64,000 bases of DNA from Herpomyces periplanetae. Its lineage: Eukaryota > Ascomycota > Laboulbeniomycetes > Herpomycetales > Herpomycetaceae. The stretch covers positions 43,799-107,798 of the forward strand of contig WMKJ01000037.1 in NCBI GenBank assembly GCA_009733715.1, read 5' to 3'. The notes under the pieces were generated by a model. The model saw only the letters and a program-made list of their open reading frames with translations, was not told the DNA's origin and ran no database searches. Within the stretch, counting starts at the first letter, position 1; each line of letters begins with the position of its first letter. A program made the position numbers and the translations under genes. Of this stretch, positions 6,881-11,158 are shown piece after piece.

Positions 6881-9800
6881 TTAATTGGCATCCCATTCGC
6901 TGGCTGCGCGAGATAAAGTCTCAAAAACTCGTGCTTCCAGTCGATATCTGACTAAACCAGCAAATACAATGAGATCGTTGGCTGCAGTGTTAATTTCACT
7001 GAGTTTCATGGATTTAGTGTCGTCCACGTAAACGGCAGAGCGTAAGCGTGTACGCTCATGGGAAAATGCAGTTATCGTAATGAGGAGTAAAGGACCAATG
7101 ACTCGTGCGAGTTCAGCAGGTTGGGCGTTAAAATTAGTGGCGGCAGATCGAATCATGGTAATGTCACCGTGGGCTGTAAAAGGTAGTAAACCGGTTTTGG
7201 CGATAAGCTTTGGAGGGTAAAGTAAAGTTAGCAAACTAGTGTACATGTATTGACAAGCCAATAAACTTACATCAAGGGCTTCATGATACAATTGTTCATG
7301 AAGTTTATTTCGAGCCTGAGCGAGAAGAAGTAATGTACCGAAAATTTCCCAAATTTTAGGATTGACTTGACGTTGAATTTGAACTTTTTGAAGGAATAGC
7401 TGATAAAAGCGATCGGATAGTTCAACGGGATCTTCAATGGCCGTTAAACTTAAAGTAGAATTAAGCTCTCCGTACTGAGCCGATTGATCTTCATGATCAA
7501 GGGTTTCCAATTTAAGACTTTGAGATCCAATTTCCGTTGAAATAACTTCAAGAAGTGTTGAATTCAACAAATTTATAACGCTATCATATTCCGAAGCTAG
7601 ATGATACAGGATAACAGCATCTGTAATTCTACCACAATCTTCTGCAACTGAAGCTGCTTGAAGTGTAATAACTTTGAGAAATGATTCATGATCCGATAAT
7701 TTGATCAATTTTAAACGTTGTTCGATAGCGCCTGGTATGCGTTGCCCGTCATTTAAAATATCGCCTAGAAGAAGTGAAAATTCCCGCGTCTCTAGGACAA
7801 GTTCTCGTAAAGCTTCATGACACAGTTGAACTTGAAGTTCTCCCGCTTTTCCCGGTAAATCACTGTTCAAGCAAATTAACGTCAAATAGTCAACCGCCAG
7901 TTCAGGATTAGCAATGCGAAAGTCACAAGTGTAATGACCGATCATCAAGCCAAAGTTTATGTTAGCCGCTCCGTCCGTATCAATGTTGAGTAAATCGGGT
8001 TGATGAAAATCTCCAACACGAAGTAAACCGTAAAAGTCCAGAGCAATAGCAAAGTGAATAGCGGTAACTGCATTGAAATCGTAAAGCCAATTAACCGCTT
8101 GTTCAAACAATCCAGCTGATATTAACAAGTGAAAGTAGGTTGAAGGACTGTCGATGGTATCACCATGTCTGGTAAAGTGTCGCTCTCCAATATCTAGAAC
8201 TGTTTGCCGAATAGCTTCAAGATCGTATCGTGAAGTAGCATCAGGATGATCAATATCATGGGAATTTCGGGATTCACGAGCCAAAGCAAATTGAAGCCAA
8301 ACCCAATCTTCGTAGCCCAGATTAATATTTGGCAAACTTCGACGTTCTAATTCAATGCGACCAATTATCTTATAACAAGCCATTCGATAAGGGTCAACTT
8401 GGTCAGTAGGATACTTCTTTTGGGTTTCCCATTCTCGAATTAACTCAAGTCTAGAGTTGCGCGGCAAACTTCGCTCGGGATCTTGAGCGTAATGGGCGAA
8501 AATGCGCGGAAACGACCGGTCAATGCCCAAAATTGCACGATGATTTTGTGAAATGTATTCCGCGGCATCATTGACCAGCCCACATCGCAGAAGATAATAT
8601 ATTAACACCCAAACATAATCTTCACCAACCCGCTGTAGCAACACATCATCAGATCCGAGTTCTTTGCGTGCCGAACATACTCGAATATATCCGCGGACTT
8701 CATTAATTGCTGACGGAATACCTCCCATGTGTGCTTCGCGCAAATTTCGTTCAATTGTGCCTTGGATATGCCGTAAAAATTTTTCTTCAAGTGCCTGTCG
8801 CGATCCTTTGAGAATTCGGGCGCGCATTTCTTCACTACCGCCATTCTCGCGTAAATATTCAGTTGCGTAAATACGCTCTCCAGTACATGTACCACCCATT
8901 TTATCCACAGGACCAATAATCTTCATTAAAACTTTGAAAGAATCAATTATCAATTCGTTATCGTCCGTTTTAATCAACTTTTCTACGTCCAAAAACCCGT
9001 CAAGCAATTTGTACCAAACTTCTTGTAATCGAGAGATTGTTAACTCTTGAACACACTCTCCATACTTTTCTTGCTTATCGCGCAACATAGCACTATCTCC
9101 ACTCCATCCCTGACTTGCACTATCCTCTAGCTTACCAAGGCCATATCTTCCAGACCTTCGTAATATTGTAGATGATCCATTCGATTGTCCAAGCACGGAT
9201 TTTCTTCCATTGAATTTAAATCCTTTACCACTACAAGATTTCATACCGCTCCACCCCATACCTTTTTCGTGAACAGCTGAATCATTGTCTTCGACTTTAC
9301 ACAAACCAAAATGCTCGTATACACGTTTCCTCGCGCCATCCCAATCTTCTTCTAATGTACCTTGTAGTAATAATTCAAAATCTCGTTTGCTTTGCGCAAG
9401 TCCCTCGGAGATAATGTTCAAAGTTGTCTGCGCATTAATACTCTGGATGTAAGCGTCAACGTTAATATCACTCTCATTAACTCCTCCACCGTTCATGTGT
9501 GCAGTGACTCGTGTAGAAATCTCATCCAAATTTTGGACAGTAGCCGCTGTAGGTACACCAGAAGCTGCTAATAAATAATGCGCTTTACTATCGAGTAGCT
9601 CATCACTACGACCATTATCTAAAGTAGCACCGTTTGTGCCAATACAACGAACTCTTTGAGCAATGTCCCCCAAACCCAATTGTAGGCTAGGCAGTTCACC
9701 TAACTGAGCTGAATTTATGTTAACATCTCGCTTGAGCATTCTCTGTTTGCTTCGTTCAAGTAAATGATCAAAGTAAGCGTTCTGGGAATTAAGAGCTGGT

Positions 9801-10294
9801 GCGTTCACCCCATTTACACTTTTACTATGTTCTCCTCCTATACCCGTAACAATAGAGCTATTCATGTATCCAAGTCTGTCATTACCGCTTCCTCCGGTGT
9901 TAATGGTAGAATTTCCGTTCCAATTCCCACTTGTAGTCGCATTGGTATTAATATTGGAAGTTGAAGTAGCACCTAAAGTTGACGTAGTCCCTCCACCAAA
10001 TCCACTGTTGTTACCAAAGTTAAACATTCCTGTCGTGGTGGGTTTATTTTGTAATCCAAAGGTGCCCGTTCCACCAGATTGATTTAAACTTGTACCGGTA
10101 GTAGTGTTTGTCGCTGCCGCGGTTGTCGTGGATTCAGATGAAAAGTTTGGCATGGACAATTCACTATTCGTTGAATTTCCCTGTTGCCCAAAACCTTTAT
10201 TTCCCGAGCCCAAGTTTCCAAAACCTCCACTACTGAACAATCCACCCGAAGATGGCGCGCTTCCCAACCCGACATTGGTAAAGTTTAACGACAT
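6881..10294 (-). CDS. NIC96: Linker nucleoporin Nic96/Nup93
   Basis: Single-exon gene for a 1137-residue protein of the Nup93/Nic96 family, the inner-ring scaffold nucleoporin that anchors the Nsp1-Nup57-Nup49 channel trimer. The first 130 residues are Gly/Asn/Ser/Thr-rich with scattered FG dipeptides (SGGFGNLGSGNKGFGQQG, MFNFGNNSGFGGG). The linker region after it is helical. The large C-terminal alpha-solenoid contains typical family stretches such as YPTDQVDPYRMACYKIIGR and the segment around DYLTLICLNSDLP. The length is greater than S. cerevisiae Nic96 (about 840) because of the N-terminal extension, in line with filamentous ascomycete orthologues. The start codon is a clean ATG and no intron is needed. 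It shares a 369-bp divergent promoter with the ATP8 gene. Confidence 0.92.
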   Translation of the reverse strand: MSLNFTNVGLGSAPSSGGLFSSGGFGNLGSGNKGFGQQGNSTNSELSMPNFSSESTTTAAATNTTTGTSLNQSGGTGTFGLQNKPTTTGMFNFGNNSGFGGGTTSTLGATSTSNINTNATTSGNWNGNSTINTGGSGNDRLGYMNSSIVTGIGGEHSKSVNGVNAPALNSQNAYFDHLLERSKQRMLKRDVNINSAQLGELPSLQLGLGDIAQRVRCIGTNGATLDNGRSDELLDSKAHYLLAASGVPTAATVQNLDEISTRVTAHMNGGGVNESDINVDAYIQSINAQTTLNIISEGLAQSKRDFELLLQGTLEEDWDGARKRVYEHFGLCKVEDNDSAVHEKGMGWSGMKSCSGKGFKFNGRKSVLGQSNGSSTILRRSGRYGLGKLEDSASQGWSGDSAMLRDKQEKYGECVQELTISRLQEVWYKLLDGFLDVEKLIKTDDNELIIDSFKVLMKIIGPVDKMGGTCTGERIYATEYLRENGGSEEMRARILKGSRQALEEKFLRHIQGTIERNLREAHMGGIPSAINEVRGYIRVCSARKELGSDDVLLQRVGEDYVWVLIYYLLRCGLVNDAAEYISQNHRAILGIDRSFPRIFAHYAQDPERSLPRNSRLELIREWETQKKYPTDQVDPYRMACYKIIGRIELERRSLPNINLGYEDWVWLQFALARESRNSHDIDHPDATSRYDLEAIRQTVLDIGERHFTRHGDTIDSPSTYFHLLISAGLFEQAVNWLYDFNAVTAIHFAIALDFYGLLRVGDFHQPDLLNIDTDGAANINFGLMIGHYTCDFRIANPELAVDYLTLICLNSDLPGKAGELQVQLCHEALRELVLETREFSLLLGDILNDGQRIPGAIEQRLKLIKLSDHESFLKVITLQAASVAEDCGRITDAVILYHLASEYDSVINLLNSTLLEVISTEIGSQSLKLETLDHEDQSAQYGELNSTLSLTAIEDPVELSDRFYQLFLQKVQIQRQVNPKIWEIFGTLLLLAQARNKLHEQLYHEALDVSLLACQYMYTSLLTLLYPPKLIAKTGLLPFTAHGDITMIRSAATNFNAQPAELARVIGPLLLITITAFSHERTRLRSAVYVDDTKSMKLSEINTAANDLIVFAGLVRYRLEARVFETLSRAASEWDAN

Positions 10295-10663
10295 TCTATC
10301 TTGTCGCTTAATTCAACACTTTATAACATTCGTTAACAGACAAACCCGACAATATGAACAATTGAATATAACAACAAATTCAATTCTCCCAAATTTTTAT
10401 CTTCCAAAGAATTCTTTTATCCTTAATCCGTTAACAACCTTTTCATCGCCTTCGCGCCCAACGCGCTCCATTCCTTCCATCGAATCACGTGCCCATATTT
10501 TCACACCTGCATCACGTGCCATTTCAAATAATTTTTCCGGCTCCGAAGACGGGATTTTGTCGACAACAGTTTGGAGGGAAGATCTTGAAAGTTTAAACTT
10601 GGGATTTTTTCACTGGTTAAGCATTCGTTAACTTATCAAGAAATTTTTACACCTTTCTATCAG
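10295..10663. promoter_or_regulatory. Divergent promoter of NIC96 and nuclear ATP8, two E-boxes
   Basis: The 369-bp gap holds TCACGTG at 10486-10492 and again at 10512-10518, 19 bp apart start to start. These match the CACGTG core bound by bHLH factors such as Cbf1. A frame open through this gap on the plus strand is antisense chance sequence. Any shared regulation of the two genes is inference. Confidence 0.5.
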
Positions 10664-11158
10664 ATGGCAAATTTATCTCGTTTAATTCTACGTGCAGGTT
10701 GGCCGGGTTCATCGTTATCACGATATGCCAGCACGTCAATACCCACCTCGCTAGGTGTGTCGCGTTATTCTATGGTTCGATCGATTCGTCCGACGCCCTT
10801 TGTTCATACCGGCAGTCCGATTCTTAAATCAACGTACAAAACTTTATTCGATGATTTCTTCACCTCCGCATCGATTACATCGTCGCGTAAATCTTCTATT
10901 TTACCACGTTTGGATGGTCAACCACTTGTACGCGTGTTCACCTTATGATATTAAAATTTACCTAAACTCTAATAATTGACCTTTTATTTACAGACACCCG
11001 TATATGCTGCTATGCCTCAGCTAGTTCCATTTTTCTTCGTCAATGAAGTTACTTACGCTTTTATCTTCTTCTCCGCCCTTGTATACATTATGTCCAAGTA
11101 CATTTTACCCCGGCATGTTCGTCTTATGTGTGCCAGACTTTTCATCAGCAAACTATAA
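10664..11158 (+). CDS. ATP8: Nuclear-encoded mitochondrial ATP synthase subunit 8 with presequence
   Basis: Two exons, join(10664..10927, 10994..11158), 142 residues. The last 48 residues are a complete F1Fo ATP synthase subunit 8 (Atp8, A6L): MPQLVPFFFVNEV at the N-terminus, one membrane span, a SKYILPR motif and the C-terminal RLFISKL that fungal mitochondrial Atp8 proteins share. They are preceded by 94 residues that look like a mitochondrial presequence: Arg/Ser/Thr-rich with no acidic residue in the first 60. The 66-nt intron has a GTACGC donor and CAG acceptor and is phase 0 (a GTGTTC donor 6 nt later is also in frame). Subunit 8 is normally encoded in fungal mtDNA, so this is a functional-looking transfer to the nucleus with a standard-code ORF. 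It forms part of the peripheral stalk/Fo interface in the inner membrane. Two other overlapping frames are open here but are shadows. Confidence 0.88.

Follow-up and report, generated by a model that had tools for sequence, protein, structure and literature searches.

Relocation of atp8 from the mitochondrion to the nucleus is rare: according to the accessible part of PMC10809612, the gene is among those with fewer than six nuclear transfers across eukaryotes. ATP8 engineered into the nucleus serves as a test case for relocating mitochondrial genes. Natural nuclear copies have been described in fungi. A 2017 study of Stemphylium lycopersici reported a nuclear atp8 (TW65_04673) and a nuclear atp9, both with presequences predicted by TargetP; the accessible text of the same study places atp8 and atp9 in the mtDNA of two Capnodiales and suggests that their loss followed the split between Dothideomycetidae and Pleosporomycetidae (PMC5626475). 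Shiraia-like fungi are likewise said, in the portion available, to have moved atp8 into the nucleus (PMC11881002), and the absence of both atp8 and atp9 from mtDNA is described as a feature of the Pleosporales in excerpts of three further papers (PMC6221350, PMC5722872, PMC11167856), the last of which has the two genes present in the mtDNA of many Dothideomycetes orders and lost within Pleosporales. As far as the accessible portions of other mitogenome reports go, atp9 was found in the mtDNA of Neofusicoccum parvum with atp8 not named (PMC4366305), atp8 was missing from 9 of 20 mitogenomes (PMC7225605), and the gene list for Macrophomina mtDNA gives only atp6 and atp9 for ATP synthase, with atp8 included in a tree legend (PMC8451660). 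For Phyllosticta, Aplosporella and Saccharata the Atp8 entries come from contigs 0.77-3.35 Mb long, and these large contigs, together with the Macrophomina gene list as available, are consistent with a nuclear atp8 in Botryosphaeriales.

The gene considered here lies in a 64-kb stretch of Herpomyces periplanetae DNA, the window. Its full preprotein retrieved 23 proteins, most of which are Dothideomycete entries named by NCBI that share its core and are about 98-105 residues long. The first-pass annotation of the window, made from its letters, knew of no described natural fungal example; that claim is refuted by the available text of PMC5626475 and PMC11881002 and by the many Dothideomycete copies in the databases. 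A literature search for a nuclear-encoded ATP synthase subunit 8 in work on Ascomycota mitogenomes retrieved nothing. By published standards a nuclear atp8 is ordinary for its class, to which the sequence comparisons add evidence for an old transfer tied to NIC96. On sequence comparison the gene is very probably a working nuclear atp8 that stems from a single old Dothideomycete transfer, settled beside NIC96 behind a presequence exon.

Structure and nuclear setting of the gene

In window coordinates, the gene and its neighbour are arranged as follows.

6881..10294, minus strand: NIC96/NUP93 nucleoporin gene (Pfam Nic96, E 4.5e-175), with its ATG at 10294
10295..10663, no strand: intergenic region of 369 bp between the divergent NIC96 and atp8 ATGs, a putative shared promoter
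10664..10927, plus strand: atp8 exon 1, 88 codons, by its translation likely a mitochondrial presequence
10928..10993, plus strand: predicted phase-0 GT-AG spliceosomal intron of atp8, 66 nt, its site backed by read-through ORFs of relatives
10994..11158, plus strand: atp8 exon 2, 54 codons and stop, encoding the six-residue linker TPVYAA and the Atp8 core
11012..11155, plus strand: Atp8 core, 48 residues from the ancestral Met, which is preprotein residue 95; matched by PF05933 and 6b2z

Joined in phase 0, the exons give 142 codons and a 142-residue preprotein. The intron, which is predicted from the sequence and its homologues, has the borders GTACGC...TTATTTACAG and a GC content of 29%, and four in-frame stops precede the core when the gene is read unspliced. 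An alternative in-frame donor at 10934 (GTGTTC), used with the same acceptor, would make a 60-nt intron and a 144-residue product possible. Preprotein residues 95-142 match PF05933 over model positions 1-48 of 48 (E 1.3e-21; 76.9 bits, the curated cut-off being 26.1) and also match the yeast Atp8 of PDB 6b2z (E 9.2e-10), and because the family match spans the full model and is joined by the yeast match, a chance resemblance to Atp8 is out. Exon 1 had no Pfam match, and Rfam and tRNA scans found nothing across the 64-kb window. The first-pass annotation had proposed an Atp8 encoded in the nucleus, extended at its N-terminus by a presequence-like stretch and with its ancestral Met now internal, an intron just ahead of the fusion point, and an intergenic region common to atp8 and NIC96. 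The family and yeast matches on a nuclear contig, the gene model with an intron whose site and phase recur in relatives, and the distance between the two start codons bear out this description, the coordinates of which were correct.

The gene is encoded on a nuclear contig, among nuclear genes, which in the window include those for arginyl-tRNA synthetase, an amidase, a DBP10-type helicase and NPL4 as well as NIC96. GC3 is 0.38 in the atp8 coding sequence and 0.32 in NIC96; gene GC in seven mtDNA copies of atp8 is 0.20-0.28. Across the assembly (13.8 Mb, 220 contigs) one match exceeded the PF05933 family cut-off, and this was the window core. A second atp8-like match, on contig C219, had an E value of 3.89 and one internal stop and was taken as chance. 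Exon 1, searched against its own assembly for a second copy or a donor, matched only itself. COX1, COX2, COB and ATP6 had no match anywhere in the 13.8-Mb assembly, and since the same kind of search worked there with PF00137, giving seven matches, the mtDNA is judged to be absent from the assembly. One of these seven lies on another contig (L005:1200-1632, at about 36.5-37.0 kb of C84) and is a nuclear atp9, which has an intron of 103 nt and is extended at its N-terminus, with a provisional start; judged by this sequence, subunit 9 is likewise nuclear-encoded in Herpomyces periplanetae.

The 94-residue extension ahead of the core contains 11 Lys or Arg and 3 Asp or Glu, with the first acidic residue at position 63. 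Its most amphipathic stretch, residues 3-20, has a hydrophobic moment of 0.54, a value that 114 of 5000 shuffles reached. Exon 1 is thus predicted, as likely, to encode a mitochondrial presequence. It is longer than most nuclear-type presequences, and a profile built from those of 52 other nuclear Atp8 copies gave it 0.2 bits (230th among 926 scored, from 999 shuffles plus the window), a score not above shuffles and hence no sign of presequence homology by profile. On what is generally known of Atp8 and of mitochondrial import, the preprotein would be made in the cytosol, and its amphipathic N-terminus would guide it through TOM and TIM23 to be trimmed by MPP, the matrix processing peptidase; the single span would then enter the inner membrane, leaving the basic C-terminal half on the matrix side.

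Core and intron among nuclear and mitochondrial copies

A profile of the Atp8 core found 658 proteins, and the comparisons use the best 120 of these. Copies with at least 4 residues before the core Met were called nuclear-type, an assignment that is inferred for unnamed metagenome proteins and is to be read with the caveat that mtDNA frames may also run open upstream, as in L010 and L013. The mtDNA set (n=8) consisted of yeast 6b2z and the contigs L010, L011 and L013-L017, taken to be fungal mtDNA. The last five are filed as bacterial in GTDB (Fictibacillus, Streptomyces, a Bacilli MAG, Tolypothrix and an Atribacteria MAG) and carry a fungal-type mitochondrial atp8; with a GC content of 26-30% and an atp6-like motif in 4 of the 5, they are probable fungal mtDNA contamination. 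L010 and L011, filed as viral in IMG/VR, also carry a fungal-type mitochondrial atp8, joined in L010 by an atp6-like motif. Several of their ORFs resemble intron endonucleases by eye, and by sequence the two are probably fungal mtDNA misfiled as viral.

Of its 48 residues the window core shares 25 with yeast, 32 with L010 and 29 with L011, and it keeps all 18 positions that are invariant among the 86 distinct nuclear-type cores from the listed matches. A core tree was built from 47 rows, namely the window, the 8 mtDNA cores and 38 nuclear-type cores hand-picked from the 86. The window core fell with the nuclear-type group at a support of 92/87 in this tree, in which the bootstrap had not settled and which was read solely for the nuclear/mtDNA split, its 48 columns resolving little more. 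The window core has Cys-Ala at positions 40-41; all mtDNA cores (n=8) have Ile, Leu or Val followed by Ser or Thr, and the 86 distinct nuclear-type cores have Ala (69) or Cys (15) at position 40 and Ala at position 41 in 82. At two other positions the window departs from the nuclear pattern. Pro21, present in 106 of 109 nuclear-type copies among the listed matches and in 0 of 8 mtDNA copies, is Ser in the window, and Arg34, which the window has, occurs in 6 of 8 mtDNA cores but in 2 of the 86 distinct nuclear-type cores. Ser21, Arg34 and the unmatched presequence could reflect an early branch or a reversal that came later; a separate transfer is the less likely explanation. Pro21 itself is a candidate for a change tied to import or assembly, a pattern seen here and not a published criterion.

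Polar and aromatic residues in the membrane span had been put forward in the first-pass annotation as a drop in hydrophobicity for import, and this proposal holds in part. Over core residues 13-27 the mean Kyte-Doolittle value is 2.07 in the window, 2.08 in the 86 distinct nuclear-type cores and 2.74 in the 8 mtDNA cores, so nuclear spans are less hydrophobic on average (Mann-Whitney p 1.4e-4, on rows that are not independent). The p value rises to 0.019 once position 21 is omitted, and part of the gap therefore comes from that position alone; the span of the mtDNA copy L010 is, at 2.01, as low as the nuclear ones. The residues that had been cited are common in mtDNA copies, with Tyr25 in 6 of 8, Lys29 in 5 of 8 and Tyr30 in 7 of 8, and the SKY motif and Tyr25 are accordingly rejected as import adaptations. 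Nor is lower hydrophobicity strictly required, since in yeast a targeting sequence and an adjusted code sufficed for nuclear Atp8 to work, as given in the accessible text of PMC3420929.

Proteins called from unspliced DNA extend back into the intron, where a Gln represents the acceptor CAG read through. Counted back from the core Met, such a Gln is found at precisely the seventh residue in 36 of the 44 proteins that lack an NCBI name versus 3 of 57 NCBI-named ones (121 proteins from the listed matches, 20 of them too short and dropped), and a Gln occurs there as well in copies lacking an NCBI name whose linker, like that of Verruconis, is RILQAA. Six copies translate through the whole intron in the pattern QQM|V...Q|T.LKSA, with inserts of 48-66 nt. 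The window intron has the same site and phase as in these six, the relatives' intron being read from unspliced protein calls rather than from DNA.

Linkage to NIC96 and the origin of the gene

Among the NIC96 matches listed (best 120 of 332), the closest to the window's protein is that of Eremomyces bilateralis, with 49% identity and 967 bits, the next scoring 795. A tree of the window protein with 42 of the 120 listed (332 found) likewise joined it to Eremomyces, which belongs to the Eremomycetales, Dothideomycetes incertae sedis, at an SH-aLRT of 100; its branch is long (1.24) and its letter make-up was flagged as unusual. By NIC96 the source of the window thus reads as a Dothideomycete allied with Eremomyces. 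The long branch and odd composition perhaps belong to a fast-evolving genome, which at 13.8 Mb is also small.

Linkage of atp8 to NIC96 was compared in the 34 species named both in the NIC96 list (best 120 of 332) and in the Atp8 lists, one of which is the best 120 of 658. It was judged from contigs of identical length and from locus tags, not from DNA, and by these criteria the two genes are linked in 7 of the 34, six of them outside Pleosporales. Contigs of identical length carry both genes in 6 of 34, namely Verruconis, Tothia, Trichodelitschia, Aulographum, Rhizodiscina and Kalmusia; the Kalmusia linkage, on a contig of 4.38 Mb, is weak evidence. Adjacency proper is supported by tags in two species alone, Verruconis gallopava (PV09_08613/PV09_08612) and Venturia inaequalis (BLS_001320/BLS_001321), where NIC96 and atp8 have consecutive numbers. 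Because several contigs or members make up the Phyllosticta and Venturia clusters, identical length is not decisive for them, and Venturia was counted by its tags. Verruconis and Tothia belong to Venturiales, Trichodelitschia to Phaeotrichales, and Rhizodiscina and Aulographum to Aulographales. The length and tag criteria gave no linkage in 27 of the 34 species, five of them outside Pleosporales (Saccharata, Phyllosticta, Pseudovirgaria, Trypethelium and Zopfia) and the other 22 presumably Pleosporales. Outside that order the genes are thus linked in 6 of 11 species; within it, 22 of 23 have atp8 off any contig that matches the NIC96 contig in length, taxonomic order having been looked up for nine species and presumed for the rest. 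No report of NIC96-atp8 linkage or of a common intron was found in the literature, most subscription papers lying beyond the search.

These patterns suggest that atp8 would have moved once from mitochondrion to nucleus in the Dothideomycetes, landing next to NIC96, and that the linkage would later have been lost in many lineages, above all in Pleosporales. A single transfer predating Pleosporales is favoured because the intron site and phase recur, NIC96 linkage recurs, and the core groups with nuclear-type copies at 92/87. Had the window's lineage instead moved atp8 separately from Pleosporales and Venturiales, it would be easier to see why its presequence goes unrecognised by the profile of 52, why it lacks the Pro21 of nearly all nuclear-type copies and why it shares Arg34 with most mtDNA cores. 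Such a second transfer would, however, have needed the same landing site plus the same intron, and is therefore very unlikely: the intron agrees with that of relatives in site and phase, NIC96 is the neighbour also in Venturiales, Phaeotrichales and Aulographales by tags or contigs of identical length, and the core, with its nuclear-type Cys40-Ala41, lies within the nuclear-type group.

The mtDNA might also still supply most or all of subunit 8, the nuclear copy being one of two or a relic. In favour of this, no mtDNA genes were found in the 13.8-Mb assembly, but the nuclear core retains every invariant position, the exon-intron structure is intact, and the Pleosporales covered in the accessible text of PMC5626475 and PMC6221350 have no mtDNA atp8; this reading is improbable. 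An assembly chimera or a recent NUMT is scarcely credible, given a spliceosomal-type intron, nuclear composition, divergence from mtDNA copies, in-frame exons on one contig amid nuclear genes, and the recurrence of NIC96 as neighbour in other fungi. Nothing was found in favour of a chimeric contig, which the first-pass annotation had named as a possible refutation, and it was rejected.

Within the single-transfer account, a more specific version has about an even chance of being right. It has a single transfer land beside NIC96 in an early member of the Dothideomycetes that lay outside Dothideomycetidae and well before Pleosporales, with the linkage apparently kept in Venturiales, Phaeotrichales, Aulographales and the window's lineage, and with the window copy as an early branch from before Pro21. 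The wider date proposed here runs against the loss within Pleosporales given in the available text of PMC11167856. If the specific version is true, the window core displays the membrane span before the import- or assembly-related change to Pro21. If the nuclear copies can be traced to one site with a common intron, neighbour and set of residue differences, the order of the changes could be asked.

Comparison with known systems

Stemphylium and other Pleosporales resemble the window in having a nuclear gene, a predicted presequence, a core that begins at its Met and a nuclear atp9, as far as the accessible part of PMC5626475 describes them. Six read-through copies with presequences of Pleosporales type share the window's intron site and phase. 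Named Pleosporales copies differ in being mostly about 98-105 residues long, in starting like MNS.R..RP.ARA and in carrying Pro21. Verruconis, Venturia inaequalis, Tothia, Trichodelitschia, Aulographum and Rhizodiscina, like the window, combine an extension and an Atp8 core with NIC96 linkage (by tags or contigs of identical length), but their cores have Pro21 and their presequences are different. The mtDNA-encoded fungal copies (yeast, L010, L011 and L013-L017) have a homologous 48-residue core, yet none has Ala41 or Pro21. To our knowledge, mtDNA-encoded Atp8 has neither a presequence nor a spliceosomal intron. The engineered allotopic ATP8 of yeast is, like the window's gene, nuclear, with a targeting sequence; it has an adjusted code and is functional. 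Unlike the window's gene it uses, for example, a presequence borrowed from Podospora Atp9, and the accessible text mentions no intron (PMC3420929). By analogy, the natural gene of Herpomyces periplanetae is proposed to work like the engineered yeast ATP8.
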